Position numbers and translations under genes: made by a program | Shown here: piece by piece, positions 18,453 to 63,120 of the stretch | Layout of the letters: each line of letters begins with the position of its first letter | Position numbering within the stretch: the stretch's first letter is position 1 | Origin: Nereocystis luetkeana | Lineage: Eukaryota; Sar; Phaeophyceae; Laminariales; Laminariaceae | Reading direction: 5' to 3' | Assembly (NCBI GenBank): GCA_031213475.1 | Contig: JARUPZ010000024.1 | Coordinates: forward strand, 9,117,324 to 9,181,323 | Length of the DNA stretch: 64,000 nt | Notes under the pieces: model-generated | What the model was told of the DNA's origin: nothing | What the model saw: only the letters and a program-made list of their open reading frames with translations | Databases searched by the model: none

Positions 18453-18624
18453 ATGGAGAACGAGCGATACGTCTCGCACGATGCCAAACACGATGACAAG
18501 GGTCGGTACTGTTTCCCAGAGGAAGTGTTCCACGTTGTGTCCTACACGCACTCGCCATCCCCCACGCTGCTAGCGTACGAAGAGGCGTTTCGCTCTTCTC
18601 GACCAAAGCAGTGGCCTGGTGGAG
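18453..18624 (+). CDS. Five-motif EsV-1-7 gene, plus arm, exon 1
   Basis: This proposed start exon encodes 57 residues beginning MENERYVSHD and ending with KQWPGG. The ATG sits in a good context (GATGCCATGG). The exon ends in GG, A, G followed by donor GTGAGG, phase 1, which fits the phase-1 acceptor of exon 2. Support is weaker than for the other exons because the matching exon of the minus arm is not in the window. Confidence 0.5.
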
Positions 18625-21600
18625 GTGAGGAGACACTGGTTGGTGTCCAGTATTTAATGACCTGCCCCAGTGAGTGCTTACCGTGGTACCCGGGGTTTCC
18701 TCTTACCAGCGGCTGTTAGTTTTGTTTTTTTGTCATCCTCCAGCGGGTGGATAAAAGTAAAGCCTAGGCTCACCGCACTTCCACATATCAATACGGGTCG
18801 TGTGTTATTTCGACTCTGTTGTATCACTAGTAATCTACGGTTGTTTTGTTGTTAATTGGTGGTACCCAACCGTACTACTACCATTGCAATGGCAGCGCAA
18901 GCTGCGGTGACCTCGGACGTGGCTGTTGGCACAGCAGGTAGGACAGAATGCGTTGGGCACCTCATTCACGATTTTTCCCGGTGAATTCTGCCGCGGAGCC
19001 GAGGGTTTCCTTCTACGAACGACTCTTTTGCCACGGCAGTGGGCCCGCCAGGATGCACTGAACAGCTTTTTCTACCGACGCTAGCTGGGGTAGGGGTATA
19101 CACCTAATTTTATGTGGCTCTTCGTATTTTGGGGCTCACTAGGTCAGTCAATAACCGACTCTCAAGGAAAGTGTACGCTAAGCATCTAATGACTGGGCTT
19201 GGTGAAAAAATCAGATCGAAATCCGAAGACACAATGGTTGGGTGGTTTGAGAGTTACAATGGTTGGGCTCAAGAGTGCAACCCCTATTAGCAACCCCTAC
19301 CGCATGGCGGCTCTACTGGTGACGCCGGTGATGTCACGCGTGACATGCAAGGAAAACTGCACTCACTTTACCGCGCATTTCCTCCCTTTGTCGAAATTCG
19401 CGTTGCTGGTGGGATGGCCAGGCGATGGCCGAGGGGCATACTGCGAAGGTGGGCACAACTGCTCGGCACCACCTTCCTACAGTGTCGACGGCAGAAAACC
19501 CGCGGTCCTGTGCGGAACCCACCGGGAAAACGGCATGCACCGCGTTTGGCACGATGACCGGAACTGCGGTTACAAAGGGTAAGCACGTCTATGCCACGCG
19601 GGCGAGACTGTCGTAAACGAGAGCTCACCGCGCTAGCCGGTGCATGGTGTATACCTCGTACCGCCCAAAACGGCTACACCACTTTCGTCCAAGCGTTGAC
19701 ATGGGCGCTGTTGGCTTTCTGAGCGGAACCGCGGGTATCCCAGTGGTTCTTTCTGGCGCTCAAACGCGGATGTGGAACCTTACTACCGTACTCGCTCCCT
19801 TCCTTTCCCCTTTCGACGCAGATGTGGACGTCTTGCCCAAGTCCGTTACATGTCCGAGGACGGCAAAATCAACCGTTTTTGTCCCAAGCACAAGAATCCT
19901 GACGTGATCGTCACCAGGACTAGGCACTGCCAGGTGATACCTCGCGCAACTATCAATAGTGTGAAGTATTGCACACATCGGACAGATGATGTACAGATAT
20001 CTCATCTACAGATGTATAATCTAAGTGATCTAGATCCTTACCTGCCGTTATGATATGTTGTGCTGGATCTGTATACTACGGGGGACCAACTCTTGCTATT
20101 AATAGTAGAAATGGTTAAACATATAGTTTTTTATATATACCATAGGTCCTATTGACTATGGCCCCCCATAATAGTACAGACCCAACCCGGGAATCTTGTA
20201 GATTATACCAATCGGGAGTACGTCTGCCCTGGATGATATACTGTGGTGGGAATGGGTGTTCTGTCTGACGTGTCCACTATTGCTTTCGCATGCGTTTACC
20301 TGTATCACTTGCGGCCGCATCCTACAGCAGAAGCTTGAGTGGGCATGCTCACTTTCGACATGTCCTAGCCCGCTGACACAGAGTACCGCGCCCGAACGTT
20401 AGCATTTGCTTCCTTTATGACAGGACATTGTGCCCCCCTCCACCCCAATTTCCGCTCTAACGTACCGATCGCGTGGCTTGGTGGCACGCAACGACGACGC
20501 CAACAATGCCGTTGAGTCTCAATGCCCCAATTTCCCTTGGCATGCTATGGCAAAAGGATGGGTGCATCTGCAACTTTCTGAGACTCTTTTCTTGGGGACC
20601 TCTGTATGCCATCCCCCCAAAAAACGTGTTCTAGAAAAGGTGCACGCTTAACCCGATGGGCAATCCCATGGCCTATGCCTGGTATATCGGAAGACCAGTG
20701 CTACGGTAGGAGTAGCACTTTTTCGCTGAAAAACAATTTGAATGACTGTCCTGCCTAACTAACCCTTTCGGAACTGCAGCATCGCTTTGGGGACTGAGTC
20801 GTTTGTCCCCACAATGGGGCTGAATTACTAAAAGGGTTAACCCTTAATCGTCGGAGTGTCACAATTTTTCGTTCGCCATACGATACACCTGGTATGGGAT
20901 TTATCATCGGGTTGAACTTTCATTTTTTTCAAAATCAGTTGTTGGGTGAATTACTAGTGGTTAGGGCTCCTCACGTCAGGAACCTCAGAAAAAATATGGT
21001 GTGCCTCTATATTAGCGTGTGTCCAAGCATACAGTAACAAAAAACGGTGCAATGGTTGGGTGGTACCTCAGTTGAGTTTTATTTAACCAATGGCTGAGTG
21101 CATCAGACATACCGGTAAATAGTATTTGAACACGCGTCACCCAGAACAAACGACCGTGTCCGAACGTTTCGTGGTCCAAACCTTAGCAAGCGTTAGCAGG
21201 TGTTTCCTTGTTGTCATAAAGGATGCTTTGCCCCCCCGCCCCCAGAGGCTTGCTACGTTAGTAAGGGCGGGTGCGCCCATGAATTTATTTGGCTCCTCAA
21301 TTCGAGGGTCTTTATATTGTTAGCGAACTCGTCACCATCAATAAAACTTTGGCCGAACATGGAAGTGCAACCTGAGGAGCAATCCCGTGGGCTATGTATG
21401 TAGGTATAGAAGGCATGCCTTATTATCGAGCGCTGATGAGACTCAATAGATAATAAGACACGGCCTATAGGGCATGTGCCTTGTTAGGCATGCCTCATTG
21501 GGGTAGCTTCTCGGTTGAGGGCCCCCGTCATGTCAAAAATACTTAGCCCGAAACTGCTATTTCCGAGGACCACAGCAGTAATCAGGACCCAGCTTACACT

Positions 21601-24600
21601 CAGAATCCTATTTATTCGAGTATTTCTACTTCTCGTCTGGAGTCCTGATTGCTACGTTCCCCCGTAACACTCGCGACGCCTATCGTGGCAAACGTTCCTA
21701 TGCTCCCTCTCTAGCTTCCCTCTCTAACGTGCCGATCGCTCGGCGTGATGACACACATTGCACAACGCCGTTTGGCAGTACGCTCGCTGCTACAGCACTC
21801 CGGGCTACGGCATGAAGGGAGGACCTCAGAGCTTTTGCCGGGAGCACAAGAGGGCCGGCATGTTCACCAGCCGCAACGGCGAACTCTTGGTGGCGACTAG
21901 AGACGGCAGTGGTAAGGGTGTGGGCTCTCAGAGCAGTAAATTAGGTAAAAGGAGAGCTTCATGCGAAGTACCTTGCAGTGCTGCAGTTCGTGCTGCGCGT
22001 TACCCCTTCTGCGAGAACGGTGTCAGCTTTGCTTGTCGTCCCGCTTGCCACTATTTCGCACCTCGGACAGTTCACGATCTAGATCATCTACAGCAGATCA
22101 TCTACAGAGAGATCACGATCTAGATCCTAATCAGCCGTTGTGGCGTTTTCGGCAGGATCTGTGCAGCACGGATCCAACCCTGGGAACATGTTCTAGACCA
22201 TGCAGGATAGGCGGCTCCACCCGGCAACATGCATGAGCTACAGTAGATATCTACAAATGAGGAATACTGTCACCCTGAAAGATCTTCAAGTGGGGATTGA
22301 TGATTTGTCAGAGGTGTGGGGCTTTTTCAAGTGGAAGAGAAGAGACGCGCGTCCCACCAACGGTTCCCCTGAGTAGCGGAAATAACGTTGCTCGGTAGTT
22401 TAGCCATTGCCGTGACGCTTGCTTTGCGTTCAGTGCTGATTGTCGTCAGAACGGTGGCGGCGCGAGATAGGCCTCTCTACAATGTTTTTGTTCCTGCTCC
22501 GGTTTCGAGGAGTCTACGTAGGGTGAATGGGTTTCAGCGGCGAATTCTTGATGGCGACCCGAGAGGGGGATGGCGGAGCTGTGGGCTCTCAGGGCACCAA
22601 CGTACGTAAGAACTGTACTACAGCACCCGATTTTTCTAGGAAGATACACCCCGATTTTGTATGATCTGTATGATCTAGCTCATGCTGCCGGGCGGGATTT
22701 TGGTGTAGTCTGCATGGTCTACTGTAGCACATGTTTCCTGGGCTGGATCTATCTGTACTGTGTGCAGACCCTGCATCTCAACGGCAGGGGAAAAATGACC
22801 GTAAAATAATTAATGATCTCCACTGTAACGGTAGATCATGTCATGATCTGTTTAAGGTGTGTATTGTCCGAACAAAAACGTCACCAGCCCTTAATTATTT
22901 CGTTTTCGGAGGTTTCGCCGCGACCGGTCGTAGGGTTTAGGCTTCGGCGATCTCGAACGGGGTAGGTACAGCAGCGCCTTTTTTTTTCCGCCTCCGAGTA
23001 AATAAAAAACATCGCAGCTGCTCGTGATAACTGTCGTGCGTTACTATGTCTACCGAGGAGTGTTAGCATCGCTGTTGACCCCACTTCCCACTGTTCACAT
23101 CGGACAGTTCACTGACAGATCACTGACAGATCGCCGACATATCACCGCTCCCCACTCGATGGCCTAGTGCTTTCAGGGAGGATGATTCTTGGTCTGTGTG
23201 ATTTACAGTAGCTAAACGTTGCCGGGTGGGGGCTGTATTTCATGCGTGATCTGTGTAGCACATGTTTCCTTGGCTATATCTGTGTTATACCGATCCTGCA
23301 CGACACATGATAACAGAGGGTTAGGATCTGCAGATGATCTAGATCATGACCTGTCCGATGTGACCGTTTCTGGTGTTGAAGAGATACGCATCCCGCCCTA
23401 CGGGTACGTAGCAGGTACGTGCGCAGTTCACAGTACGTACCATAGACAGGGGTGTGAGTTGGCCGAGTATATCCCCTCTGGAAACCCTCGTGAGGGATAG
23501 CGACCAAAACGATGGTTGATCACTAGGGTGTTACCAACCATTGAACCGTCCAGGAGCAGTGTGAGCGCCCAGCAGTAGTACGGATAGGATCAGGCTTCGC
23601 CTGTACCGTACGACTCCTTGCATTCAACCATTGTAGCTCGGACACGCAACTTCTTTCCCCCGTCAACCATGCAGTGGCCACAATGGTTGCCGTAATCGTC
23701 GCTTTTACCGTCACCTTTTCCCTCTAAGTCCCAAAGGGGTTAAGTCGCCGACTAGTTGGCAGTTGGCTAGGTAGACTATAGCAATCAGTTGCGTGCGGTA
23801 ATTGGCGGAGCTCTGCGCCTTTAGGTGGCTCTGACTGGCACTGTGGCTCGAACTGTCTATGTGTTTTGTTTTGTCAGTGAAGACTAAAGCCAGTTAGTAG
23901 GATCACTTACCTCGCCGCCTAACTGATAAGTAGGCGTAATAACACAGTAAGCCAACTCAAAGTCCCCAAAAATACTGTGTTTGTTGCCAGGGTTTGCCTT
24001 GCGTTCAGTGCTGGTCGACATACGCACGGTAGCGGCACACCGTAGGTCTTGCTGAGGGTCTGTTTTTAATCCTGCTCTTTTTCCACGGGGTCTGGCATGC
24101 GAGACGTTCAGGTCGATGCCTGTATAATATACGTAAACCTTACGGTACGGTTGAAACTGCTTGTCTCATCACATGACCATATCCGCCGTGCTTGGCGCTA
24201 TACTGCCGTTCTCCTTTGTGCCGCGATAACTCTGCAGCATTCAGAACGGAGGCTTCGACTGTACCAAGCGTAGTCCGCAAGGGTGCTAACGAGGGTGAGC
24301 GCACGTAGCCAGTCGGTATGAACCGCAATAGTTGGGGCAACGGGGGTGCTGCTGCGAACGTAGTGGGCAACGTTTTTTTTTGTCTCGGAAACTCCTCATC
24401 CTTTTCCGTGGTATTATGTCTCTTCCTGATACGCCTCGCAGACGGGTACGTACAGCCCCCCAGGAAGTGCATAAGCACCAGCGGTGACCGATACCAGTAC
24501 CCCCCCCCCCTCCCCCTTTCCGCCGCAAACTACGTCGTACAGTCAGGGTGCGTAGTCGTGCGTGCTGCGGCTCGGTAGTTCGCCCACGGAAAGCCCGACG

Positions 24601-27600
24601 TGAAAGCGGAAGGGTTAAATATGCACGCATATATACACTTCCGGCCGTCACGGCTGTTGCCGCCCTTATTGCAAGAGAATATCCCCACTTCCCGTCGTAT
24701 CTCACCCCGTTATTGCTCGATACATCACACCATCAACAAGCCTTTCTTCGTCTTCACCTCGTTTTTGTTTTTTCCTTGCTCGCTCGTTAGCGTCCGGCAG
24801 CGCTGACAGCACCCCACACTCTCCTGCGCGATCAGCCCCAGGCGGGGGCCCAGCAGCCAAGTCGGCAGAGGTCGCCTCAAGCCCTCTCCAGGATTCCAAG
24901 ACCTCGCCGTATTCGCCCGGGAAAAACATGCGTAAGAGGATTGCAATCGGGGGTTGCCATCGGGGGTTGCAATCAGGGGTTGCAATCAGGGTTGCCGTTA
25001 ATGGTTGCCACTAGGGGTTACAGTTAGGGGCTGCAAATAGGGGTCGGAATTGGGGTTTGCCAGTAGGGGGTGCAATCAGGGGTTGCAATTGGGGCTGAAA
25101 ATAGGGGTTGCAACTAGAGGTTGCAATCGTTTGTCTCTGACTAGTGATATATTCCTCAACTGAGGAGCTGTCGGTACTCAAAATCGTGGGGGCTGGTGAA
25201 AGAAGTAGATATACAGCACTGGGGGCTAGTGTTTATTTGCTACATCCGTAGTCGTTGTATTGGGCAGTTTGGAGTGAATCCACGCTTTTTCGAGAGCACG
25301 TGTCCGCGAGCTTTTGTGGTGCTACGTATATATCCCTCTGCCCGGAAATTTAAGGGCAGTTTTTTTTCATAGTAACAGTTAAAACATACTTATATTCCTG
25401 GGCAGAGTGGTGCAGTATCTGATCGCCGGCGTCGTAGTTGTACCGTGATAGCAAGCTTACGATGTTTGTACTATATCAAAATGTTTTCATCGACATATGG
25501 ACAAGTTGAAGAGAACAACCGAAACATATATCTACTATTAATACCAACCACCCTCCCTCTGCAGTACGTACCTACTATGAATAGTAGCCAATGGCATTGA
25601 TGTGTATCGGGCTCAGCTTACGAGTCTCTTAAAATGGCTCCTTGGGGGGCTTCTTAGGTCCGGGGTCAGGGGTCCCTGAACATTTTGGTGAGACCGCGAC
25701 CGTGAATGACCGTGGTACTCGGCTGTTAAGGTGGTGGAGAAAAACGCCGCCGTTATACTCGCCGCTTTTGAACGAAGGCTCTGACTGCGGGTGTATGCAT
25801 AGAGTTGTACTTGGGTCGTGGAATGCCAAGCTTCAAAACGAGAGTACGTTATCGCTGCATCAGTTTTTTTGTCTGACTCGTACCGCTGTCCCGAAATGTA
25901 ACAACCTTTTGGATAGTAATGTGATGAAAACGATATATATATATATATATTTCGAACCATCGTGACAATATCCACCTCCAAGTCGCAACACGATAATTAG
26001 CTACAGGTATCACCACTGCAGCTGATCTTTGTTGCTGTTGCTCGCAAGACGCTCAGGGTTATCGCACACGCACAACCCCTGCCCCTCCTTGCTTAGCGAC
26101 CCCATTGTGAACGCGGCACTACGTACAGCAGCTGTCCCTGTACTGCCGCGCGCTGTGCGCAAGCTTGACGCACCACTTCTGCAAACGCAGACTTCCCTCG
26201 ACGTACACGTAACTGCGCGATGGCTTGCTGTGTTCCTTACGCGCCATGCCCTACGCTGGCGCTCCCGCTTTTCTGTCTGCGTGCTGCGCTCCCCACGGCT
26301 GCAGTGCTGTCCCGAAAATTGTGCGAGGTTCCTGGCTGTCGAGTTCAGCCCAGCTACGGGGAAACCGGTAAGGCTGCGTTGTGTCCTTCCGAGAGTTGGC
26401 AATCGTTCTGAAAAACGACGGCGATCGTTTTCGTTTCGAGTCGCCGGTCTACAAAGGACGATATTTGAATCTCTCAAGGCGTTCTTCGATAATATTGTCG
26501 TCTCGATCTCGATCTCGATCTCGATTCTCACGTAGAACTTTACCAGTTTTGTTGCGACACGTGTCGTGTGAATCACCAACGTATTTCTTGTGGTTTGTAG
26601 ATGCCCATATTGGTTGGGCCGTAACCGGCAATTGTCAAAACCGGCGGCACGGTGTACAGCGGTAGAGTAGGCCGACTGCAGGTCGGTCTGAAACCAGCGA
26701 CGGCATAGCCAAGGCAGGCTTTTTCTACCCCTTTTGGAGCTTTCGTTTTGGGAAAAAACCATCCGAAAACTGTGTGGAGTAGTTTTTTTACAGGAGTGGC
26801 AAGGTTATAATCCTTGCACTATTGTACTGAAAAACGTGTCTCACACTCTTTCCAAGTAGTATGTCCCAAAACAATGGTTGCGTTTCTCTCAAGGGGGTAA
26901 CGCGCAGTCTGTGTACTTCGCTTACTTTCTCGAGTGAAGAAGGCGATGAACGTCAGGATGAACCTGGTAATGAAGTGCCGAAAACAATGCCGTTCATGAA
27001 GCGGCCGTTGTCGGGCGAAGTAGTGGCGATTGACGTTCTAGTCGAGGACAGGATTCGAGTTCCGAGCGCCTACTTAATACCGTATCACCCGTGTGATAAG
27101 GTAGCACGCCCCCTGGGATGATTTTTTTTCTCCAGAACGAGGGAGGCACACACGACGGAGGTGGCGGCTTACGGGAATATCTCGTCAAGGTCTTTCCATA
27201 GGCTGTTGTATCGCTTGGCACCATGTAGCACTTTCCTCGTTGCGGCGAAAATCAACATCGAAAACCGTCCGAGGGAGTGCGTTGTCTTATCACACGTGTT
27301 CTACGCAGCCGTGCTCGTCGTCGGCGCTGCGGCTAAGAGTTCTCGTTGCACGTGAGGAGTACATGGGGGACATGTCCCACTTTTTTCCCTCGAGAAGACT
27401 TTGCGTTCGCCTAACCTCGCTTCTGCCACATGGACTGCTCCGCCTGCTGTGTTTCCCCCCCAGGCACAAGCCGGCCGCGTTTCTGCTCTGGCCACAAAAA
27501 GAAAGGCATGGTGGGTCTCAAGAACCGTCCGTGCCTCTTCCCAGGGTGAGGAGCGATATTTTTTTTTCCCCTCGGCGGGCGGTGGCTTTCCGTGTCGTGT

Positions 27601-28375
27601 ATTTTTGGTGCAGTACGGGCGGCGCTAGGAAGCCTTGGCCGCGATGTACCACTCTGATTGTTTCTTGAAACTGTAAGATATGCTTGATCTGGTGCCCACG
27701 AAACTGCGTGGCCACTGCGAGGACGTTGCGCACTGTAAACAACAAGCGGTTTATGTACTACCGGGTACAGAAGAGCTAAATTGACACACTGACACATGCT
27801 TTATGTGGAAGTGTGGTAAGGACAAGCTTTACTTCTACCCATGCACGGGAGGATTGGCAGAAACAAACACCGCCAAAGCAGGGAGGCGGGCATCCGCCGG
27901 AGGATTAACAGAGAAGGTACTGCCGAAGCACCAGATGATAGGAGTTGGAATCCCTTCTCCGCTAAATACATATTTAAAGGTATTGTCTTGCAACTTTGGT
28001 GAAATTAGGAAGACCCATCAGGTGCAGTTTTTATTTTTCAAGAGCACCGCTTCAAATCCGATACGACGCTAAATGGTAAGCGCAACCCAGATGTTTGAGG
28101 TTCTCCAAGAGTTTGGAGGCCACGCAGGGCAGGCTTCCGTGGCGCAACACCGCACCTGATATATGCTCGTTTTGGAAACGACGCTAACAACGTTTGCCCT
28201 CTCGTGCTCCTGCGTGCGATGCGGTGGCAACGACCGTAGGTGTGACATACGACCCCACTACGGGCTGTCGGGGGGGCGGCCGCAGTACTGCGCCAGCCAC
28301 AAGAGCGACGACATGATTCACCTGCTGAAGGAGTCCATGAGCCGAGAGAGGGTGCACACTCCGAGGTGCGATTGA
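18453..28375 (+). CDS. Five-motif EsV-1-7 protein gene, plus arm (7 exons)
   Basis: The exons are 18453-18624, 19422-19578, 19822-19933, 21779-21911, 26305-26367, 27464-27545 and 28240-28375. They sum to 855 nt and encode 284 residues. After an unrecognised N-terminus (1-58) come five EsV-1-7 units with Cys/Cys/Cys/His at 65/71/88/91, 106/111/130/133, 146/151/167/170, 198/203/220/223 and 236/241/257/260. Unit 4 fits the family spacing exactly (X4, X16, X2, X12); unit 1 has X5, and units 2, 3 and 5 have X18, X15 and X15. Introns have GT/AG ends, phases 1, 2, 0, 1, 1, 2, and most cut inside a motif. I see no signal peptide or membrane segment. EsV-1-7 proteins include the Ectocarpus regulator IMM; metal binding or a scaffold role is inference. 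A copy with the same exon lengths lies on the - strand (55336-63120). An alternative end would splice on into the gene at 29773. Confidence 0.8.
19422..19578 (+). CDS. Five-motif EsV-1-7 gene, plus arm, exon 2
   Basis: The exon encodes C-EGGHN-C, then PPSYSVDGRKP, then C-GT-H-RENGM, and ends in NC-GYKG, the start of motif 2. Acceptor GGCCAG and donor GTAAGC are conserved in the minus-arm copy (62964-63120), which has the same length of 157 nt. Confidence 0.8.
19822..19933 (+). CDS. Five-motif EsV-1-7 gene, plus arm, exon 3
   Basis: The exon opens with the second Cys of motif 2 and runs through RFC-PK-H-KNPD to C-Q, the first Cys of motif 3. The acceptor tract is CCCCTTTCGACGCAG and the donor GTGATA; both are conserved at 62319-62430. 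Joining in phase 2 gives an exact C-X4-C with exon 2. Confidence 0.85.
19975..20110 (+). repeat. GATC-rich element, copy 2 (intron 3)
   Basis: The element starts at CACATCGGACAG about 40 nt after the exon 3 donor and runs through ATCTACAGATGT and CTAGATCC..CTGCCGTTATGA. A related element sits at the same place and gene orientation in the minus arm (about 62060-62285), suggesting it predates the duplication. Confidence 0.6.
20110..20176 (+). mobile_element. Partial MITE (CTATTACGGGGGGCC family)
   Basis: The right half, ACCATAGGTCC..GACTATGG and CCCCCCATAATAG, matches the complete element at 44917-45027. The left inverted repeat is decayed or lost. Confidence 0.55.
20459..20525 (+). pseudogene. 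Relic duplicate of the exon 4 acceptor region
   Basis: CTAACGTACCGATCGCG..GACGACGCC..GCCGTT closely matches the 60 or so bases upstream of exon 4 at 21720-21778 and of its minus-arm counterpart. The exon itself does not follow in a usable form. It looks like a partial tandem copy of exon 4 with its upstream intron. Confidence 0.45.
20759..20840. mobile_element. Short palindromic element (TTAACCC...GGGTTAA type), copy 2
   Basis: AACCCTTTCGGAACTGCAGC on the left and GGGGCTGAATTACTAAAAGG on the right form an imperfect inverted pair around TTTGTCCCC. It is related to 13230-13321. Confidence 0.55.
21779..21911 (+). CDS. Five-motif EsV-1-7 gene, plus arm, exon 4
   Basis: The exon encodes YAR-C, GYGMKGGPQSF, C-RE-H-KRAGM and a tail ending ATRDGS. 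It joins exon 3 in phase 0 to give C-QYAR-C, exactly X4. The donor is GTAAGG, phase 1. The minus-arm copy (61195-61327) has the same 133 nt and an almost identical protein from KGGPQSF onward. Confidence 0.85.
22060..22255 (+). repeat. GATC-rich element, copy 3 (intron 4)
   Basis: CACCTCGGACAG is followed by GATCTAGATCATCTACAG-like repeats, then CCAACCCTGGGAACATG and GACCATGCAGGA, ending near ACAGTAGATATC. It belongs to the family described at 15405 and 30190. Confidence 0.6.
22520..22615 (+). pseudogene. Relic duplicate of the 3' half of exon 4
   Basis: GCGGCGAATTCTTGATGGCG and the following CGAGAGG..GTGGGCTCTCAGGGC match the 3' end of exon 4 and the first intron bases after it. The cysteine-bearing 5' half is absent. 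A similar remnant lies downstream of the minus-arm exon (about 60740-60830). Confidence 0.45.
22645..22860 (-). repeat. GATC-rich element, copy 4 (inverted)
   Basis: TGTATGATCTAGCTCATG, then TCTGCATGGTCTACTGTAG and GTAGATCATG, are the reverse of the 30190-30450 copy. It lies in intron 4. Confidence 0.55.
23185..23365 (-). repeat. GATC-rich element, copy 5 (inverted)
   Basis: This stretch begins near TTACAGTAGC, continues through GATCTGTGTAGCACATG and AGGATCTGCAGATG, and ends at CTGTCCGATGTG, the inverted form of the CACATCGGACAG end. A direct half-copy (CACATCGGACAGTTCACTG) lies at 23097-23150. Confidence 0.55.
24945..25240 (+). repeat. GGGGTTGCAAT-rich element with internal short repeats
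   Basis: About a dozen degenerate units of the type GGGGTTGCAATC run from 24945 to 25125, followed by CCTCAACTGAGGAGC. The same signature occurs at 19215-19310 (inverted), 30755-31030, 51807-51945 and 55180-55305 (inverted), and more weakly near 21040, 23600, 44290-44600 and 58350. It is a dispersed, non-coding element family, often ending in AATGGTTGGG. Confidence 0.6.
26305..26367 (+). CDS. Five-motif EsV-1-7 gene, plus arm, exon 5
   Basis: This 63-nt exon encodes LSRKL, then C-EVPG-C, then QPSYGET, the first half of motif 4. Acceptor CACGGCTGCAG and donor GTAAGG are both in phase 1. The minus-arm exon (57591-57653) is also 63 nt with the same phases. Confidence 0.8.
26502..26526 (+). repeat. 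TCGATC microsatellite
   Basis: Four consecutive TCGATC-type units lie in intron 5. Confidence 0.8.
27078..27307. mobile_element. MITE family V, copy 2 (intron 5)
   Basis: The left end TACCGTATCACCCGTGTGAT and the inverted right end TGCGTAGAACACGTGTGATA face each other over 230 bp. It sits between exons 5 and 6. The minus-arm copy of the family is in the preceding intron, so the two insertions are independent. Confidence 0.7.
27464..27545 (+). CDS. Five-motif EsV-1-7 gene, plus arm, exon 6
   Basis: The exon encodes TSRPRF-C-SG-H-KKKGMVGLKNRP-C-LFP. It completes motif 4 with the family's exact X16, X2 and X12 spacing and starts motif 5. The acceptor follows a strong pyrimidine tract (TTTCCCCCCCAG); donor GTGAGG is in phase 2. 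The minus-arm exon (56131-56212) is also 82 nt. Confidence 0.85.
27797..27865 (+). repeat. Short intronic repeat (ATGTGGAAGTGTGG type)
   Basis: TTATGTGGAAGTGTGGT..AAGCTTTACTT..CCC..GGAGGA recurs inverted at 18728-18800 and 55822-55905 and in direct form at 56265-56330. In both arms one copy lies in the last intron in the same gene orientation. Translations of the copies resemble each other (MWKCG...FYP), but frames and ends differ and I do not call an exon. Confidence 0.5.
28240..28375 (+). CDS. Five-motif EsV-1-7 gene, plus arm, exon 7 (last)
   Basis: The exon opens with the second Cys of motif 5, then RPHYGLSGGRPQY, C-AS-H-KSDDMIHLL and a tail ending RCD before TGA. It joins exon 6 in phase 2 to give C-LFPG-C. 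By eye 21 of 136 bases differ from the minus-arm exon (55336-55471); 14 of these are silent, which suggests purifying selection. A GTGCGA at 28366, conserved in the other arm, could be an alternative phase-2 donor. Confidence 0.85.
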
Positions 28376-29772: not shown

Positions 29773-30056
29773 AAAGCTCGACGGACATGGGCCTGTTGCG
29801 ACGGACACAAAGGACCGCCCGGCGGTCGCAGGGTCGAAGGAAAAAAAGCACAAGGCTTTAGGTGTGCGAGAGACTGCGGGTAGGGAGGGTGACAACGGGG
29901 ACGAACAGAACAAGGAGCAACAGGAAACGAAGGGGAGAGCGAAGGGCAAGAATTCGAAACGAGTTGTGGTTGTGGCTGGGAAGGGGAACTCCGGAAGGAA
30001 GGGAAAGGTCAGCGCCTCCCAGCCGCCGTCAGCTTCACCACCGCCCGTCCTTCAAG
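29773..30056 (+). CDS. Single-motif EsV-1-7-like gene, plus arm, first recognised exon
   Basis: The exon follows the acceptor CTCCCTGCTCTGCAG and ends at donor GTGGGC in phase 1. It encodes KLDGHGPVATDTKDRP, a charged EQNKEQQETKGRAKG stretch and a Pro/Ser tail (PPSASPPPVLQ). The minus-arm exon (53883-54388) has the same boundaries and phases and is 222 nt longer through in-frame low-complexity expansion. Confidence 0.65.
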
Positions 30057-49965: not shown

Positions 49966-50095
49966 GACCTCTCCGACGAGGACGCGTGTGTCCAACACAT
50001 GCTCCAATGCGGAACCGACTCAAACGCCTGGCACAACCACTCAAGACATGCACATAGGCTCCAGAAACTCCCAAAGCGGGTGCACGTCACGTTCT

Positions 50096-53100: not shown

Positions 53101-54388
53101 TTTTTCCTGAAGCATGGCGGCGGGACTCTTGGCATTATCAAGTCGCCGGTTTGCAATTACGATCCTTGCAAAAACTAAACTCAATCGTGGACCTCTGTTC
53201 GCTTCGCATAATTTGATGTACTTTTTTCCTTCCTGAGCGAGCGTAGCGGGCGGCGAAGGCCGCCCGCGGAGCGAAGCGCCTTGTATATATATATATATAT
53301 AATGCCTTCCACGCACAAAATTTCTCCAAGTAACGGAGGCAGACAGGGACAAGCTTGAGTCCAAAGAGCGTGCTAGGGCAAGCGCTCTGCAGCAAGCGTG
53401 GAACATGTACGAGTTACGGCGCAGGCTTACACGACATTTCGCGGGGGCAATCCACGCGAACATAGTATCCGACGTGAAGCTGCTCGCCTCCTGGACGCTG
53501 CAGGAAAAACGAGACGGAAGCTTCTTGAAGCCGCATCGTACAGTGGTGTCAGCCCGACCACAATCCGCACAACCATGCTATCCAACCTGGATCCGCCCCC
53601 TCTCTCCAAGCAGCAGAAACCCGCTACTGGCGTGGTGCTTGAAAGCGCATCGCACGGGGCCAGTCCAACCACGTGCCGCATGCTACTCAATCTGAAGCCG
53701 CACGCTCTCTCTAGGCAACAGAAAAACAAGACGCGGAGGTAAAACTTGAAAACGCATCGCACAGTGACAGTCAAACCACGAGCCGCATATTTTCTAATGT
53801 TGATGCTGCTCGAGTTCTCTAAGAAGCAGATAAACGAGAAGCATGTGATGCTTGAAAGCCTATCGTATAGTGCCATTCCCACCTTCAGTGGCGGGTGGTG
53901 GTGAAGCCGGCAGCCCCGAGGAGGAGGAGGAGGAGGAGGAGGAGGAGGAAGCCGGGGAACTTGCAGACGGCGGCGTTAACGCAGGCGGCTTGGGAGAGCT
54001 AATCTTCACTTTCGCAGGTAGCTTGGGAGAGCTAATCTTAACTTTCGTGCCTCCAGTTCCAGCCGTTCCCGTAGTTCCTGTAGTTTCAGCAGTTCCAGCA
54101 GTTGCAGTTCCGGCAGTTCCAGCAGTTCCTGTCGCGGCAGTTGCTACGTTCCGCCTAGACCTCTTCCGCTTGGCTCTTACCCTTACCCTCGTCTCCTGCT
54201 CTTCCTCGGGCCGTTCGTTTTCGTTGACACGCTCTCCCCCTGACGCCTCTTTTGCGCCCAATGCCTTGTCATCTCCCTCCCCCGCAGTCTCTTTCAGGTC
54301 CGACACCTTGAATTTGATCTCCGTCGATTCTGCAGCGGCTGGGCGATCCTCCTTTTTCGTCTCAGTCGGCCGTTTTTCCTTTTTCTTC
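50096..54388 (-). CDS. Basic low-complexity protein with one C-terminal EsV-1-7-like motif, minus arm (5' end unresolved)
   Basis: The exons, in order on the - strand, are 54388-53883, 51697-50701 and 50141-50096 (1549 nt, about 516 residues). It is the paralogue of the plus-strand gene at 29773-33864, with the same three exons, intron phases (2 in, then 1 and 2) and split third-Cys codon. The product is Lys/Arg/Glu/Ala/Gly-rich. It has the SRMAEAPGMAPS core and a helix-prone charged stretch, and ends C-EFES-C, AAMYG, C-KT-H-RLPGL. The first exon has grown in frame: a Gly-Thr-Ala repeat tract, a doubled KVKISSPK unit and a poly-Ser run encoded by the GAG microsatellite at 53918-53949. An ATG at 51785 followed by a hydrophobic stretch mimics a signal peptide, but the homologous acceptor at 51698 makes that stretch intronic. 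Function is unknown. Confidence 0.7.
50701..51697 (-). CDS. Single-motif EsV-1-7-like gene, minus arm, middle exon
   Basis: The acceptor tract (TCCTCTCGGCCTCGATCTTAG on the - strand, ending at 51698) aligns with the plus-arm acceptor before 32070, in the same phase 1. The exon ends in C-EFES-C-SKAAMYG..RF plus TG, followed by donor GTAAGC. Conservation with the plus arm is highest from SRMAEAPGMAPS to the AAAAAGLKTGHVIE block and at the motif. Confidence 0.75.
51807..51945 (+). repeat. GGGGTTGCAAT-type element
   Basis: GGGGTTGCAGTCAGGGGCTG, GGGGCTCCTCAACCGTTGCA and ACCCAACCATTGTGTC. It is the same family as 24945-25240 and lies in the intron after 53883. Confidence 0.6.
52187..52812 (-). repeat. 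Dispersed repeat family R1, copy c (inverted)
   Basis: This is the reverse complement of 58-720, from GAGCGTGCTCGGTTGGTGCA to GAGGCTGAGAGAGAAGC. It lies in the intron of the minus-arm single-motif gene. Confidence 0.75.
53500..53872 (+). repeat. Tandem repeat, period about 110 bp
   Basis: Three to four units share CTTGAA(G/A)(C/G)C.CATCG.ACAG, CAACCA(C/T), CTCTCTA(G/C)GCA and ACAGAAA-like blocks. One + strand frame over part of it looks like a repeated peptide but is interrupted, so I read it as an intronic minisatellite. Confidence 0.55.
53883..54388 (-). CDS. Single-motif EsV-1-7-like gene, minus arm, first recognised exon
   Basis: It starts after acceptor CCCTTTGTTCTCCGCAG and ends at donor GTGGGA, phases 2 and 1 as in the plus arm. 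It encodes KKKEKRPTETKKEDRPAAA, an EEEQETRVRVRAKRKRSRR block, a Gly/Thr/Ala repeat tract and poly-Ser. The 222-nt excess over the plus-arm exon is in frame. Confidence 0.65.
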
Positions 54389-55335: not shown

Positions 55336-55471
55336 TCAGTCGCACCTCGGAGCGCGCACCCTGACTCGGCTCATGGATTCCTTCAGCAAGTGAATCATTT
55401 CGTCGCTCTTGTGGGAAGCGCAGAACTGTGGCCGTCCTCCAGATAGTCCGTAGTGGGGTCTTGTGTCGCAC
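55336..55471 (-). CDS. Five-motif EsV-1-7 gene, minus arm, last exon
   Basis: The exon encodes C-D, then RPHYGLSGGRPQF, C-AS-H-KSDEMIHLL and ends APRCD, stop. The acceptor is CGGCTATTGTAG. By eye 38 of 44 residues equal plus-arm exon 7. Confidence 0.85.
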
Positions 55472-57036
55472 CTACAATAGCCGGTACATATAGGGAGTTG
55501 GACTTCGGGCACGGGTTTCCTTCTGGCTTTGGTTTCCCTTCAATAACGGTTTTCTTACATCGGGAAATGTTTCTGAGTGATCAACGTTTAAAGCTCATGA
55601 TATTGATAGCACATTGCCGGATACGATGGTAAACGCAATGCTAATAATACAGCCGTTGGCTTCGCCGAGCGGGATCAAAGGCGGCGATACGGGGAGGCAC
55701 AAAATACGTTGACGATGTCCACACGAGCATAGCACTGGAGTACGTCGTTGCGCCACGGAAGCCTGCCGTGAGTGCTCTAAAAAAACACTCAAGAGACCCC
55801 TCCGTGCTGTGACAGTCTGTTATTTTTTTCTCCTCCGGTGGGTGGGTGGGTGAGTGGGTGGGCAAAAGGAAAGCATAAGCTCACCACACTTCCACATAAA
55901 AAATACGCGCCGTGGGCCAACTTAACTGTGCTGGACCTAGTATGTAGTACATACCGGTGCCGCCGCAGCCACACAGCGTTACCCGGGCACCCCATCAGGC
56001 ATACGATACGCGCAGTTTCGAGAAACAACTGAGTGGTAGCGGCCAAGCTTCTCAGAGTCGGGAGTGCAACATAAAAGACGTATCACAGAAAGCCGCCGCC
56101 CATCGAGGGCAAGATAATAACGCGGCTCACCCTGGGAAGAGGCACGGTCGATTCTTGAGACCCACCATACCCTTTTTCTTGTGTCCAGAGCAAAACCGCG
56201 GCCGACCGGTGCCTGGGGGTAAAGAGATACGCGATGAAGCAGCCGCACGGGGGGGGTGAGGGGATGCGGAAGTGTGGTGGTGAGCTTCAGCTTAATTTTT
56301 ACCCACCCGGCGGAGGATTATAAAAAAACAACAACAAAAAAATCATGGCATGGAGGGATCTCGTAGGTGTTTTCGAGAGCACTCACGGCAGGCGTTCCTG
56401 GAGCAACCTCGTGCTTCAGAGCAATGTTCGCAAAGCCCTATGAACGGTGAACAATGCGACATCACTCCGAAGCACCCCTCGAGTGCAAAGGGGCAGTTTA
56501 GGGCTGCGCAATGACACCCTCAAGCGGTAGAGACTATGTTGGCTTCGCGAGCAGTCAGTATGCTGAGTTCAATGCTGTATTGACGGGGGATGGTTGGGGG
56601 CATCGACACGAAAAGGAGCAGAGGAATACATTGAAGACATAACCAGTAGGACTTATGGCGATGGTGAGGCGAGCAATTTGTTTTGCACGCGCTCTCTTTT
56701 ATCCCAGCCGGAACTCATTCTTTATGGGTTTCAGTTTATAATATGGCGCTTATCTTGGAGGTACATGGTGTTAATATTACTGGCAGCATATGCTGCCAGG
56801 CTCAATCAGTAGATAGCTTCTGGCAGAAGAAATCGACTGTCAGTACCTGCAAGTATACACTGTGCCAGCGTGTAACCCTAGGAAATTTCAACCGCACTGC
56901 GAAAAATAGCAGAGTCAAAGGACCCCCTGAGCTCGAACATCTTTCCTGGACTAAGATGGCACTCACCACTCTCCTCCAAGTCGTCGAACAACGAACTCAT
57001 GCGGCGTTTAGTACTACACTTCTACCAGGTATGTTT

Positions 57037-57071: not shown

Positions 57072-60000
57072 GATGATGTTTTCATCTTGACTCATCGCTA
57101 AACAAACTAGTCCGTGAATGGAAGGTGGGTTTAACGTCTTGGTGGGAACAAAAAAACGTTCGGCAATAAGAACAAGCGTAATCCTGAGCTCCTACTCCCT
57201 CCTACTCCCATTGAAAGTTGTTTCTAAAGACCTTGCGGTCGCAAGACAACGCGCAACGTTTGATGAATACGACAGAAACCTATTGCTTAACACCATTGTC
57301 GCCTGCACTCGAGGACTAAAAAAACGACGTTCAGAACATGCGGAATCGCACGAAAAGCTTAACGTTCCAGCGGGACAAGCAAACACAAACAACGAACACT
57401 ATCCTGACGTCGTCTCCTCTCTCCAGATAAATAAACGTTCCTTTACAGGCCTTGCGTGAACGGCTCACCTAGCTACACACCGCTGACGTTAGAGCGAACT
57501 AGAGACGGCCTGAGTTACAGCATACCAAAACTACGCAGTTGTTGCGGTTGCCTTTGCGGCACAGTCAACACTAACACATGTCAGCCATACCTGTTTCCCC
57601 GTAGCTGGGCTGGACCATGCAGCCGGGGACCTCGCACAACCTCCTATTCAGAGCTGCCGATGCAAAAAATGCATGCACCACACAGGCAAGGAACGAGGGG
57701 GAAGCCAGGTCAAAGAAGAGCGCGTGCAACAACATCCAACTAAGGGGTAAGCACAGCATCCCAACCACGGGCATGTACATACAAAATTCAACCGAGGGGT
57801 ATACGGTGATATGCAGGGGGAATGTGTCCACATTAGGAGGCGTTAGACGATCAATTCAAAGCCCCATCGGCAGCTATAACGGAACGTGCTAAGTGGTGCT
57901 GGGTGTTCATAGCGGGTTTCGTGCTATCAGCAAGGAAGCCTGGACCAACTGTATGCCGTATAACACGCAAGGTAACACACCCCCTGGGATATTGTGTAGA
58001 GAAGAGTTCTCCAAAACGTGCCTTAAGGCCTTAAGGGGAGGAACACACAAACACAAAACGAAAATGATGGTGGTGTTGGAAACATCCCGTCGAGTTATTC
58101 TCATAGACGCATCGCTCGGCGTTTGCACCCCCCCGTTGTCTACATTAATTCAGCTTTGAAATTCGTCCGACGGGGTGTGTTGTCTTATCACAAGTGTTAT
58201 ACGGTACACGTATCACAAACACATGTATTTTAGCCCCCGTGGGACTTGAAGGCATGCCTTAACCCTCTCGAGACTTCAGAGCGAAAAGTTGACCGTAAAA
58301 AGTGACGATTGCAGCAACGGTTACTGCGTGGTTGGGGGATGATGCAATGCTTGGTGTCCGAGTTACGATGGTTGAATGCAAGGAGTCATACGGCACGGCC
58401 GCAAGATGGTCTACCTGTACCGCTCGGCGCATGCTGCTCGTAGACGATTGACAGCACCAAAATTTGTCATTGGTGTTGAAACAAATGTCGACAAAAAAGT
58501 GACCTGATTATAGCACAGCATCGTTCACACGGAGCAACACAAGGAGGCATGCTGAGGCAGGGGCAGACCCGAGCAACATTGCCAGGAGATCCCCTGGCAC
58601 GCGCGCGCTGCATGCATGGCAAAAGGCGTACTGCTGCGCCCTCCCACTGTACGAGGTGCGAACAATTCAGCCATAGTAGTACTCAGAACCAAATAAGATA
58701 TGTAAACATAGGGGGGTGTTTGTTTTTTTGGGTCCATTGGGGGGTCTGAGTACTGTATATCACCATGTACTACTACAGCCCTCCCCCACCACAATAGACG
58801 GTCGATAATACCATATGCCTGGTGTTGATTTGGTTGCTATACTGCGAATAAAGCCACGAAAGGGTTGAGTGACACTCGGGCACCGGCTATAGACAAAGCG
58901 GGCGCAGCAATGGCCATAGTCCAGTTCACTTCCATTTTGCAAGCTGGGGTTGCACGAAGAGGCAGTTCTGGTTCTACTGTAGTTCTAGTTCCGCGTGAAT
59001 CACAGCAGCAGCAGCAGTGTGAGACCTTCTTTCGAAAGGCGACTTGAAATGGATGGTTTACTCCACCAACCGTGGATAAAGACCGCGGCAGCTCTCGTTT
59101 CCGCGTGGATCACAGCAGCAGGGTGACCCTTCTTGTCATCAGGCGACTTGCAACGGTTGCGGTGCTCCCCCACTCACTTTGGACAACACCGCAAGAGTTT
59201 CTCTCACTCACGTATCATTTTTCCGGGAGAGTAAGCCGAGGTCCTGGTTTCCTGGTGAGAGCTGGAGCTGTCTTCTGGCGGCTCGGCTACGACCGGCTGG
59301 ACGGGAGAGCGTGGGGTCTCGACAGCGCGGGCGGCGGACGCTGTAGGGGGTGCAAACGAGGGGGCCAGAGCAACGCAGACGAACTGTTGAAGCGGATGTA
59401 AAGGCTTCAATAATCGACGAGCGGCACGCAGGGGAGCGACGGCGACTTTTTCGAAACGTCGAGCTGCGACGGCCCAAATCAATGCACATTTGTTCGCGGG
59501 CGCCAGATTCCTTGTACGGGAAACGTCAAATACCGTCAGGTTTCTTTCGAGGGAACCTTTAAATGGGGTCAGTGTTTTTTTGCAGGCGAAAGCGCCAAAA
59601 GGCGTCATTTGTCTTCGTAGGGTGAAGCGCCAAATCACAGCTCGCGCAATTACGCGAACCGCAAAAAAGCATGTGTACAGTAGCCTGAAGCGGTGAACAG
59701 GGGAGTGTGCCAGTATCGAGCATGCCTCGTCCACTGTTAGTGGTTCCGTCAGACTTTCCCACCGTAGATGTCAGTTCGGCGTCGGATCAGGCAAGATGGT
59801 ACTGCGGAAGGTGCAGGCGGTTCCGGGACTAAACCTTTGAGTGTGGACGGCATCTCCGCTACTCCGGTGGTTGCGCTTCACGCTGTAGAGCTGCGAGAGG
59901 GCTGGGTTTCACGGCTACAGAAGTTTCTAGTTGGACTACAGTAGTTGGGCAAAGAAGTAAGCCAATCAACTGACTTGTAGAGTAATTACCAACAGCAACA

Positions 60001-61109
60001 AAAACGAAAATTTGAGCCACAGACGCCCCAGTCCGATGAAATATGCGGACGAGAACTCCGCACGTTACCGCACGCAACCAACAGCAACATCTAGCATACT
60101 AACTGGTCGGCGGCTTAACGTTAGCCAACTCACAGCCCTTTCATATCATACCGCAACTATGGCCACAGACCAAACGACCTAAGGGTAAGAAAAATCTGAC
60201 AGTTTCCGCTCACCGTCTTTAGCACTGCTGTTTTCTGCAGCCGAAACCTCTGCTCTGTACGCTGTACGTACAAACATTGTGGCACGGAGGGCAACACAGC
60301 AGTGGAACGGCGTACATGGTAGTGGTCAGACGGTCGTTTTCCATCGTACCGTTGGTGTACCGTTGATCTACACATGTCGGCGTGAAACCCCCTCATGGCA
60401 GACTCCTTGGAACCGGAGCGGAGAAAAACAAATTACCAGAGGCGTACCTCGTGCCTCTTCCGTTCTCGCGACAATCAGCACTGACCGCGAAGCAGAGGTA
60501 GCAACAAATCATTCAACGCATGGCGCATTATGCCCTGTGCTTGTGCCTGCTACACCGTTGCGGGCTATACCGTTAGCGAGATGCGCCTCTTTCCTTCCGC
60601 TTGAAACTTGAAATAGGGGCAAGTGGGGCGAAGGGCGATGCTAACACCTTTTCTGTACACATGGTAACCAGACGCATTAACTATAATTGCACACTTTCCA
60701 CCACAGAGGAGCCCAGGAAATTGGGGGCAAACGTTTGGGCATACGTTGGTGCCCTGAGAGTCCACGGGTCACCACTGCCGTCGCGAGTCACCGCCGGGAG
60801 TAGTCCGTTGACACCCTGTCATGCCACGAAGACTACTTCTTGAGCCGGAGTAAAAAACCCCAGTAAAATCGCCAAAAACAAGAGGCCTCCCTAGCCCCGC
60901 TACTGTTTTCATGACGATCAGCTCTACACGCTATTAGTTCAAACAACTGCAAGAAGCGCGGTACTGGGCAGTGTCTGTATTCTCACACGCCAGATCCCCG
61001 ACTTACCATTACCACCACCACTAACTACTGTTCAATACTACTACAATGCTACTGCTACTATATTACTGCTACTACTATTGATCTACTACTATTCATGCTA
61101 CGATCGTAT

Positions 61110-61155
<46 letters not shown>

Positions 61156-63120
61156 GCTACTACTACCACTGTTATCAAGACTGCACACCCTTACCACTGC
61201 CGTCTCTAGTCGCCACCAAGAGTTCGCCGTTGCGGCTGGTGAACATGCCGGCCCTCTTGTGCTCCCGGCAGAAACTCTGGGGTCCTCCCTTCACCCCGTA
61301 CAACGGAGCGCTGTCGCAGCCAGCGTACTGCTTAGCAGCGGCGTCGTCATTGTTACGTGTCGTCATGCCGCGCGATCGGTACGAGGGAGGGAAGAAGGGA
61401 GGCAGCGGGATGCTCAATCCCCGGGCAAGAAGGAAGCAGCTACCGAAGCTGCAGGCACTACCGCTGTATTTTGCATACAAAATACCCGTAGCTGCTGGAG
61501 CTGGGAGCACAACTGTGATCTGTATAAAAATATCAGCAGCCGCTAAAGCTGGGGGCACTACTGCTGTGTCCTAGATACCAGTAGCTGCTAGACCCGGGGG
61601 CACTGCTGCTGTGTTCAGCGTATCATATACCAGTACATAGCTGCTAAAGTTCGGGGCACCAATGGTTTGTTGTGCATAAAACATACCAATAGATGCTGAA
61701 CCTGGGGGTACTACGAACTGCCGTGTTCTGCGTAAAACACACTGGAAATGTGCTGCTGTAACAGCGGGTCGTATTCAGAGGCGGAGGAAGGGGGGCGGAG
61801 CGCGGCTGGTTCGAGAAGAGCTGGCTCTTCATTCTGCGGCGACCAAGCTGTTATCGAGGGATGAGATTGTTGTAGTCAGAGGGAAGGATAGAGGTCGTCG
61901 AACGCAATAATCAGATACGGATGGCCGAAAAGAGAAGAGATAGTCTGGGTTTCGGAGATTTAGGTAAACAAACATGCCCGCCCACACCTCTTCGGTAGGA
62001 TGCGCCAGCGATATAGCGCACGAATGCGACGGCAAACGTTCACACATCGGAAAGATCAGATCAGATCCCGACATAGATGACTTCAATACTTCAGGACAGA
62101 TAAAATTATTGATCTGTATGATCTACTGTAGTTCATGTTGCCGGGCGGAGCCCTAGAATCTGCAGAATCTAGCTCCTGGGGTTGATATCTACTACAGTAT
62201 ACAGATCCTGAACAACATCTTGTTACGGCAGGTTAGTATTTAGATGATCTAGATGATACATCTGTGAATGATTTGTCCGGTGTGTTCAATATGTAGCATG
62301 AAGTGTTCGAGGTATCACCTGGCAGCGCCTGTTCCTGGTGACTATCACGTCCGGATTCTTGTGCTTGGGACAAAAGCGGTTAATTTTGCCGTCTTCGGAC
62401 ATGTAGCGGACTTGGGCGAGACGTCCGCACCTGCGTCGAAAGGAAAAGCAAGGGAGCGACTGACAAGGTTAATACCGCTACGAGGAGGGCGTTCGGCAGT
62501 GACTCTGTGCGCCATAGCGGCCACATATGCGCCTTAACGGCCATACATTACACAATGCAGCCCGTCTCGAGGAACATTAACAGCCGTATGGTCCTTCAGA
62601 TAGACGATGTCGGCTCGCCCGCAGCAATAGTGGGTGCGCACCAAGCGCAGGCCGGCGGTGACTGGCAAAGCAAAAGCATTTAGGCCTACCGATAGAGTCA
62701 CCAACGAAGTGGGCATTTCCGTGTGGATGATACTGTGATATAGCCTACGTCACGCGAGACACAGCACGTTTGGCGCGAAAGAAAGTGCCACTGGTCTGCC
62801 CGCGGTGCCGCACAAAAAGGCCAGATAGACGATGTCAACGTTTCGACGAAAAACATATGGTTCGGTCTTTCAGTGGTAAATACTACAGGTAGTACGAGGT
62901 ATGCACCGGCTAGTACAGTGAGCTTTCGTCCGCGACAGCCATCACCGCGTGGTACTTGCTTACCCTTTGTGCCCGCAGTTCCGGTTGTCGTGAAAAACGC
63001 GATACATGCCATGTTCCCGGTGACTTCCGCAGAGTACCGCGGGTTTTCTGCCGTCGACACTGTAGGAGGGAGGTGTCGAGCAGTTGTGCCCGCCTTGGCA
63101 GTATGTTCCTCGGCCATCGC
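55336..63120 (-). CDS. Five-motif EsV-1-7 protein gene, minus arm (6 exons seen, 5' partial)
   Basis: The exons on the - strand are 63120-62964, 62430-62319, 61327-61195, 57653-57591, 56212-56131 and 55471-55336. Each has exactly the length of its plus-arm counterpart and the frame is open throughout (about 227 residues seen). All five motifs keep their Cys/Cys/Cys/His. Examples are C-QGGHN-C..C-GS-H, C-GHKG-C..C-PK-H, C-QYAG-C..C-RE-H, C-EVPG-C..C-SG-H and C-LFPG-C..C-AS-H. Splice sites and phases (2, 0, 1, 1, 2) agree with the plus arm. The first exon would lie beyond 63121; I find no match to plus-arm exon 1 up to 64000. Intron sequence is mostly unalignable, so the duplication is old. The function inferred is as for the plus-arm gene. 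Confidence 0.8.
56131..56212 (-). CDS. Five-motif EsV-1-7 gene, minus arm, motif 4-5 exon
   Basis: The exon encodes TGRPRF-C-SG-H-KKKGMVGLKNRP-C-LFP. The acceptor tract is TCTCTTTACCCCCAG and the donor GTGAGC. The 82 nt match plus-arm exon 6, with one residue change seen. Confidence 0.85.
57038..57072 (+). repeat. TTG microsatellite
   Basis: About twelve TTG units lie in an intron of the minus-arm five-motif gene. Confidence 0.9.
57591..57653 (-). CDS. Five-motif EsV-1-7 gene, minus arm, motif 4 first-half exon
   Basis: The exon encodes LNRRL, C-EVPG-C and VQPSYGET; 63 nt, donor GTATGG, acceptor TCGGCAG, phases 1 and 1 as in plus-arm exon 5. Confidence 0.8.
57954..58206. mobile_element. MITE family V, copy 3
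   Basis: The left end is TGCCGTATAACACGCAAGGT and the inverted right end TACCGTATAACACTTGTGAT, continuing into AAGACAACACACCCC. It is 253 bp, without coding sequence, and lies in an intron. Confidence 0.75.
60740..60830 (-). pseudogene. Relic duplicate of the exon 4 counterpart, 3' part
   Basis: On the - strand GCGACGGCAGTGGTGACC and GTGGACTCTCAGGGCACCAA resemble the 3' end of the exon at 61195-61327 and the adjacent intron. A similar remnant follows exon 4 in the plus arm (22520-22615). Confidence 0.4.
61111..61155 (+). repeat. ACT microsatellite
   Basis: Fifteen ACT units, with further degenerate ACT/TAC sequence from about 61018. The array lies about 40 bp from the exon at 61195-61327. 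Confidence 0.9.
61195..61327 (-). CDS. Five-motif EsV-1-7 gene, minus arm, motif 3 exon
   Basis: The exon encodes YAG-C-DSAPLYGVKGGPQSF-C-RE-H-KRAGM and ends ATRDGS. It is 133 nt with donor GTAAGG; the acceptor follows TGCTAAGCAG. From KGGPQSF onward the protein is identical to plus-arm exon 4. Confidence 0.85.
61447..61742 (+). repeat. Minisatellite, period about 50-60 bp
   Basis: Five or six units share CAGTAGCTGCTA(A/G)A, CTGGGGGCAC and ACTGCTGTGT-like blocks. The array lies in the intron between the motif 2 and motif 3 exons. Confidence 0.65.
62060..62285 (-). repeat. GATC-rich element, copy 7 (intron, inverted on +)
   Basis: On the - strand it begins ACACCGGACA about 40 nt after the exon donor at 62318 and contains CATCTAGATCATCTAA, a CTGCCGTAACAAGATG block and CAACATGAACTACAGTAG. 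Its place and orientation relative to the gene equal those of copy 2 at 19975. Confidence 0.6.
62319..62430 (-). CDS. Five-motif EsV-1-7 gene, minus arm, motif 2 exon
   Basis: The exon encodes C-GRLAQVRYMSEDG, RF-C-PK-H-KNPDVIV and ends C-Q. It is 112 nt, with acceptor CTTTCGACGCAG and donor GTGATA as in plus-arm exon 3. Only two residue changes were seen. Confidence 0.85.
62964..63120 (-). CDS. Five-motif EsV-1-7 gene, minus arm, motif 1 exon
   Basis: The exon encodes DGRGTY-C-QGGHN-C-STPPSYSVDGRKP, C-GS-H-REHGM and NC-GHKG. It is 157 nt; the acceptor GGGATGATCAG and donor GTAAGC match plus-arm exon 2. Confidence 0.8.

Follow-up and report, generated by a model that had tools for sequence, protein, structure and literature searches.

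Alternating EsV-1-7 genes in the brown alga Nereocystis luetkeana: a predicted pair of inverted sister paralogues within a four-copy array

We analyzed a 64,000-nt window of the genome of the brown alga Nereocystis luetkeana (GenBank assembly GCA_031213475.1, 465 Mb in 1987 contigs), corresponding to positions 9117324-9181323 of contig JARUPZ010000024.1 (C24), in which two arms of coding sequence belonging to the EsV-1-7 domain family (PF19114) face each other. Comparison of the window with itself, proposed earlier as a dotplot and carried out here with BLASTN, revealed eleven collinear inverted matches that run in mirror order from 19358/63183 to 33029/50696, and thereby bore out the inward-pointing, convergent mirror described in an original prediction made from the sequence alone. 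These matches place arm A on the plus strand (19.4-33.0 kb) and arm B on the minus strand (63.2-50.7 kb). The longest and best of them extends over 933 columns with 68% identity (E = 2e-104); with E = 5e-4, the matches at 28121 and 28735 are weak, and they were lost when the search was repeated in a larger stretch. The remaining off-diagonal matches correspond to repeats. A translated comparison indicated that most inverted matches are centred on exons. The introns are largely unalignable, as had been claimed, because the collinear matches cover only 1147 of 13138 intron bases of arm A versus 1524 of 2274 exon bases. As developed below, each arm very probably consists of a single 11-exon EsV-1-7 gene, the two genes being sister paralogues, derived from a tail-to-tail (inverted) tandem duplication, that form half of a four-copy array.

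All nine exons previously paired between the arms (exons 2 to 8, 10 and 11 in our model) were recovered with matching boundaries and phase. Six have equal lengths (157, 112, 133, 63, 82 and 126 nt), and the other three show length differences divisible by three (141/129, 955/997 and 49/46 nt), exactly as reported. They do not constitute the full set, since exon 9, common to both arms, had been overlooked. The start proposed at 18453 is that of a true exon 1 (18453-18624), although its arm B partner (64062-64308) lies just outside the window; the two counterparts share 34% identity (tblastn, E = 3e-6). Splice phases agree between the arms for all 11 exons, and any difference in exon length is a multiple of three. 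The resulting model, predicted but strongly constrained, has unbroken frames of 757 (arm A) and 865 (arm B) amino acids (aa), and we infer that each frame corresponds to one transcript.

On the plus strand, exon 1 of arm A (172 nt) carries the start codon, ends in phase 1 and joins exon 2 in frame. Exon 2 (19422-19578) encodes EsV-1-7 repeat 1 and the first half of repeat 2 according to Pfam, exon 3 (19822-19933) the rest of repeat 2 and the start of repeat 3, and exon 4 (21779-21911) repeat 3, together with most of a tract identical to arm B. A Ser/Pro-rich linker is encoded by exon 5 (24791-24931), for which the ratio of nonsynonymous to synonymous substitution rates (dN/dS) is 0.94. Repeat 4 begins in exon 6 (26305-26367) and ends in exon 7 (27464-27545; dN/dS 0.02), which also holds the start of repeat 5, completed in exon 8 (28240-28365). 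The basic linker of exon 9 (29773-30056) is followed by exon 10 (32070-33024), encoding a subfamily-specific conserved core and the first half of repeat 6, and by exon 11 (33816-33864), which contains the end of repeat 6 and the stop codon. On the minus strand, arm B contains the homologues of exon 2 (62964-63120), exon 3 (62319-62430), exon 4 (61195-61327, including most of the identical tract), exon 5 (59212-59340), exon 6 (57591-57653), exon 7 (56131-56212), exon 8 (55346-55471) and exon 10 (50701-51697), as well as a basic, low-complexity exon 9 (53883-54388) and exon 11 with its stop codon (50096-50141). Intron 4 of arm B contains, directly after exon 4, an imperfect TAC repeat of about 44 units (61036-61170); none was listed in arm A.

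Each arm had been interpreted as a pair of genes. From its sequence, each is best read as one 11-exon gene, because the phase-2 donor of exon 8, exon 9 and the phase-1 acceptor of exon 10 join the supposed first gene in frame to the supposed second. Exon 8 ends at an AG/GT donor in phase 2 (AG/GTGCGA in both arms), and the apparent stop codon of the first gene lies just beyond it. Read by eye, a donor occurs at the same place and in the same phase in two further copies of the gene on this contig, copies C (GTGGGC) and D (GTGAGG). Exon 9 is entered in phase 2 and left in phase 1, and its similarity between arms A and B reaches a z score of 10.3 against 300 shuffles. The acceptor of exon 10, formerly assigned to the second gene, is in phase 1 in A and B and, by eye, also in C and D. 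A candidate exon 9 with matching phases was recognized by eye in copy D, and one with weaker support was obtained in copy C from a scan requiring those phases. The alternative that each arm carries two separate neighbouring EsV-1-7 genes, copied together as a pair, appears improbable. Reading through past exon 8 does lead to an in-frame stop at the same place in A and B, and the exon 10 frame of arm B has an ATG (51785) upstream of the acceptor; however, the first ATG of the open exon 10 frame of arm A, at 32141, comes after the acceptor, the phases of the exon 8 donor, exon 9 and the exon 10 acceptor fit in A and B and less firmly in C and D, and exon 8-type exons are linked to exon 10 on the same strand in the copies found on contigs C19 and C5 too.

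The predicted proteins of both arms belong to the EsV-1-7 family, as anticipated. PF19114 matches six stretches of each protein, with 133.2 bits (E = 2.6e-39) for arm A and 151.5 bits (E = 5.1e-45) for arm B, the latter entered without exon 1, far over the curated cut-off of 25 bits. In each product, a Ser/Pro linker would separate the first three repeats from the next two, and a long basic linker containing the subfamily-specific core would precede the one final repeat. Repeat 1 is contained in exon 2 and the other five are interrupted by introns, repeat 6 being split between the last two exons. Inspection by eye indicated that the Cys-Cys-Cys-His ligand set ending in C-x2-H is complete in each of the six repeats of both arms. 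The common spacing of the family here is C-x4-C-x16-C-x2-H, the central spacing of 16 being found in 61 of 65 domains from other loci. In arm A the first repeat has C-x5-C, the middle spacings are 16, 18, 15, 16, 15 and 14, and repeat 4 alone has the exact common spacing. A regular-expression search for the EsV motif returned nothing, because introns interrupt most of the repeats here or the spacing is unusual. At the settings used, searches of Pfam, NCBIfam and viral contigs retrieved no match to the conserved core of exon 10 (about 32165-32446 in A and 51605-51324 in B), and repeats 1 to 3 had none in a phage collection. This core is possibly an undescribed domain that marks this EsV-1-7 subfamily.

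Passages of published work describe EsV-1-7 proteins, as a hypothesis, as candidate zinc-finger transcription factors (PMC12629598) and the family as a possible uncharacterised class of zinc fingers (PMC12477816); the family member IMMEDIATE UPRIGHT (IMM) is described as controlling the first divisions of the Ectocarpus sporophyte (PMC7457493). By analogy with the family and this literature hypothesis, the arm proteins could bind zinc and act as nuclear regulators. The structure predicted for a single repeat is of low confidence (predicted local distance difference test score of 69), and this low-confidence model gave no fold match in the PDB.

Searching the genome with the exon 10 core of arm B (minus strand) revealed that the window shows only part of the locus. 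The core occurs at six genomic places (16 candidates scored), four of which are on C24, within 94 kb and on alternating strands. Besides the core of arm A (plus strand), the search retrieved copy C at C24:9092191 (minus strand, 69% identity to B), copy D at C24:9074985 (plus strand, 63% over part of the query), and single copies at C19:1180843 (plus strand, 55%) and C5:9966858 (plus strand, 50%). The mirror seen in the window is therefore a real pair but only two of four local copies. Their order is D(+) C(-) A(+) B(-), with D/C and A/B in convergent and C/A in divergent orientation. In window coordinates, copy C runs on the minus strand from exon 2 at about -11.5 kb to exon 11 at -26.1 kb, and copy D on the plus strand from exon 6 at -47.1 kb to exon 11 at -39.2 kb, both with exons in the expected order. 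The C19 and C5 copies contain an exon 8-like exon and exon 10 in the same order and strand. Within 40 kb to the right of the window, a single weak, stop-containing match to exon 2 was detected (83.3 kb, E = 0.001) and was excluded as a copy.

Over 688 aligned codons, arms A and B differ by 0.71 synonymous (dS) and 0.23 nonsynonymous (dN) substitutions per site (dN/dS 0.32), with dN/dS values of 0.12 in the EsV exons and 0.41 in the linkers. This dS agrees with the old divergence proposed earlier. Such values indicate that A and B are old coding paralogues and not alleles, and that their coding sequence is under purifying selection. Across the 163 codons common to the four local copies, the pair A-B has a dS of 0.96 and a dN of 0.09, and the other pairs have dS values of 1.07-1.49 and dN values of 0.24-0.29, with dS approaching saturation. 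Phylogenetic analysis grouped A and B as sisters (98.3/95; Shimodaira-Hasegawa-like approximate likelihood-ratio test/bootstrap). In this alignment, C19 was entered without exons 6 and 7 and C5 without exon 7, exon 11 of C19 came from a weak tblastn match (E = 0.23), and the start of exon 10 of copy D is loosely aligned. A and B are thus adjacent sister paralogues on opposite strands, that is, inverted tandem duplicates, and would have originated by inverted (tail-to-tail) tandem duplication. The arrangement D(+) C(-) A(+) B(-) would be best explained by successive inverted duplications, the order of which we infer. The topologies ((A,B),C),D and ((A,B),D),C fit the data almost equally well, and ((A,B),(C,D)) is marginal in the approximately unbiased (AU) test (0.054).

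Several observations weigh against this interpretation of the genes and the array. In the scoring of exon 9, which covered A, B and D, the similarity of copy D is limited to z scores of 3.8 to A and 1.5 to B. The splice donors are not of the strongest type, with GTGCGA at exon 8 in A and B, and GTGGGC and GTGGGA at exon 9. Exons 1, 3 and 5 of copy C were not recognized, and no motif of exons 2 to 4 was detected within 16.8 kb upstream of exon 6 of copy D; copies C and D may be incomplete. For exons 1 and 5 of copy D, nothing was found within 6.8 kb, the only stretch searched. Finally, a single origin of the whole array is unproven, because the best unconstrained tree pairs C with C5 (76.7/75) and D with C19 (43.7/53).

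Exon 4 stands apart from the other exons, with a dS between A and B of 0.17 versus 0.41-2.7. The arms are identical over 87 bp, from 21836 to 21922 on the plus strand and within 61184-61327 on the minus strand, a tract that extends 11 bases into the intron. The corresponding run of identical codons gave permutation p values of 0.0006 within the EsV exons and 0.014 on synonymous choices, both uncorrected for the choice of the longest run. Copy C resembles the arms less at exon 4 (58% protein identity) and does not share the tract. The simplest reading, which these data suggest without amounting to proof, is a short local gene-conversion tract at exon 4. A broader proposal, unlikely in our view, is that short conversion events continue to pass sequence between the convergent arms, so that EsV repeats would be kept alike while linkers diverge. 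The alternating array would then be a recombining reservoir that supplies repeat variants to a multi-exon subfamily of developmental regulators, recognizable by the undescribed exon 10 core.

The original prediction also referred to a maintained mirror structure, a wording that is too strong. The coding sequence is under purifying selection, but none of the tests made here shows that the orientation is, and mixed orientation is common among the listed neighbours of the family in this genome. We thinned the listed EsV-1-7 matches to about one per open reading frame (ORF) and merged same-strand matches less than 6 kb apart, which yielded 111 loci, omitting the array of the window itself and the C19 copy. 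Among these listed matches, 17 of 44 pairs of neighbours less than 60 kb apart have opposite orientations and 27 the same, and alternating runs are no commoner than expected by chance (p = 0.27 and 0.41 for two distance limits). Inverted neighbours are therefore common for this family here, and a special rule of alternation found no support at these p values. It is very unlikely that selection preserves a function of the mirror arrangement as such, for instance shared control or gene conversion from arm to arm: the identical exon 4 tract, with the permutation values given above and its absence from copy C, is compatible with it, but the introns and the spacer are not conserved, and both the mixed orientation of the listed neighbours and the chance-level alternation speak against it.

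The layout of the four local copies also resembles a repeated mirror, as if one inverted pair had been doubled as a block to yield both D-C and A-B. Simple doubling of this kind does not account for the array, because the AU test rejects the topologies that it requires, (A,D)(B,C) if the doubling was direct (0.004) and (A,C)(B,D) if it was inverted (0.0004). Moreover, comparison of the DNA of the four copies in direct and inverted orientation placed cross-copy matches (D-A, C-B, C-A and D-B) at exons, with only short scattered repeats elsewhere. Such a history could be hidden only if conversion had spanned nearly all shared exons, and we consider it very unlikely. The remaining explanation, two haplotypes misjoined head-on during assembly, for which we found no support, is extremely improbable, as the original prediction had also maintained: near-identity including introns was not observed, given the dS of 0.71 and the largely unalignable introns, two further copies lie alongside, and searches of the 1987 contigs returned one copy each of A and B, so that divergence and the lack of second arm copies together exclude misjoined alleles.

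The rest of the window consists partly of repeats. The spacer between the two 3' ends (33865-50095, no strand) contains dispersed repeats, and the four long ORFs tested there gave no Pfam domain. More generally, ten long ORFs outside the arms, from among 136 ORFs of at least 90 aa, had no Pfam match, and tRNA and Rfam searches of the window gave no match. A repeat at 90-715 recurs on the same strand at 47417-48232 and inverted at 52188-52830, and its copy at the left edge reaches -385. The inverted repeats at 0.1-0.7 kb and 52.2-52.8 kb were rejected as part of the mirror, as they represent a dispersed element present on many contigs: the best 40 of 3565 candidates gave 42 alignment rows, with full-length non-self copies at 81-91% identity. 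Another repeat in the spacer (37022-37400) is young and dispersed, with long matches of 93-98% identity among the best 40 of 596 candidates, and at least three more of its copies lie less than 40 kb from the window (near -34.3, 72.8 and 75.6 kb).

These findings provide a corrected gene model for a type of gene that automatic annotation may likewise split in two. The EsV-1-7 family is large in this genome, as all of the best 150 of 1710 candidates that were scored exceed the Pfam cut-off. Passages of earlier studies report the expansion of the family in brown algae (PMC12993054, PMC7457493), and propose it alongside complex multicellularity, with IMM controlling early sporophyte development (PMC7457493, PMC12993054). 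A dated, structurally resolved array of intron-rich members would illustrate one way in which this family grows: genes are duplicated locally in inverted orientation, after which the repeats change slowly and the linkers fast. We found no description of this array in the literature searched; one may be in print elsewhere.

The array genes resemble EsV-1-7 genes, including Ectocarpus IMM, in their repeated Cys/His motif, which scores well over the Pfam cut-off. Most of the 150 listed family matches in this genome, however, are located in ORFs without interruption, several hundred to 1739 residues long. The array genes differ in that their six repeats are distributed over 11 exons and in five cases cut by introns, and in that they include linkers and a subfamily core. 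Zinc finger 1 of SQUAMOSA promoter-binding (SBP) proteins has a C/H spacing similar to that of the EsV-1-7 repeat. The likeness to SBP is limited to sub-threshold Pfam matches (PF03110, 10.8 bits, E = 0.63 for arm B and 14.7 bits, E = 0.038 for locus L018, versus a cut-off of 27), and we rejected this identity. When PDB sequences were searched with a profile, none of the 13 matches up to E = 10 was an SBP, and a genome search for the SBP domain found none, but its search controls were also silent; a distant link between the two zinc-finger types is a possible lead only. Closer at hand, EsV-1-7 clusters at 18.24-18.34 Mb of contig C1 and 7.01-7.12 Mb of contig C14 resemble the array in their alternating strands and 20-27 kb spacing, and differ from it in that their matches are in long uninterrupted ORFs and that no exon 10 core was found there. 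In both, the first four listed members alternate; overall, alternation does not exceed chance. Compared with inverted tandem duplicates in general, arms A and B share the neighbouring position of paralogues on opposite strands, a conserved exon structure and diverged introns, and they differ only by the four-step alternating array and the possible short conversion tract. The locus is an ordinary inverted duplication in a known family, the product of ordinary gene-family growth and not a new type of structure.

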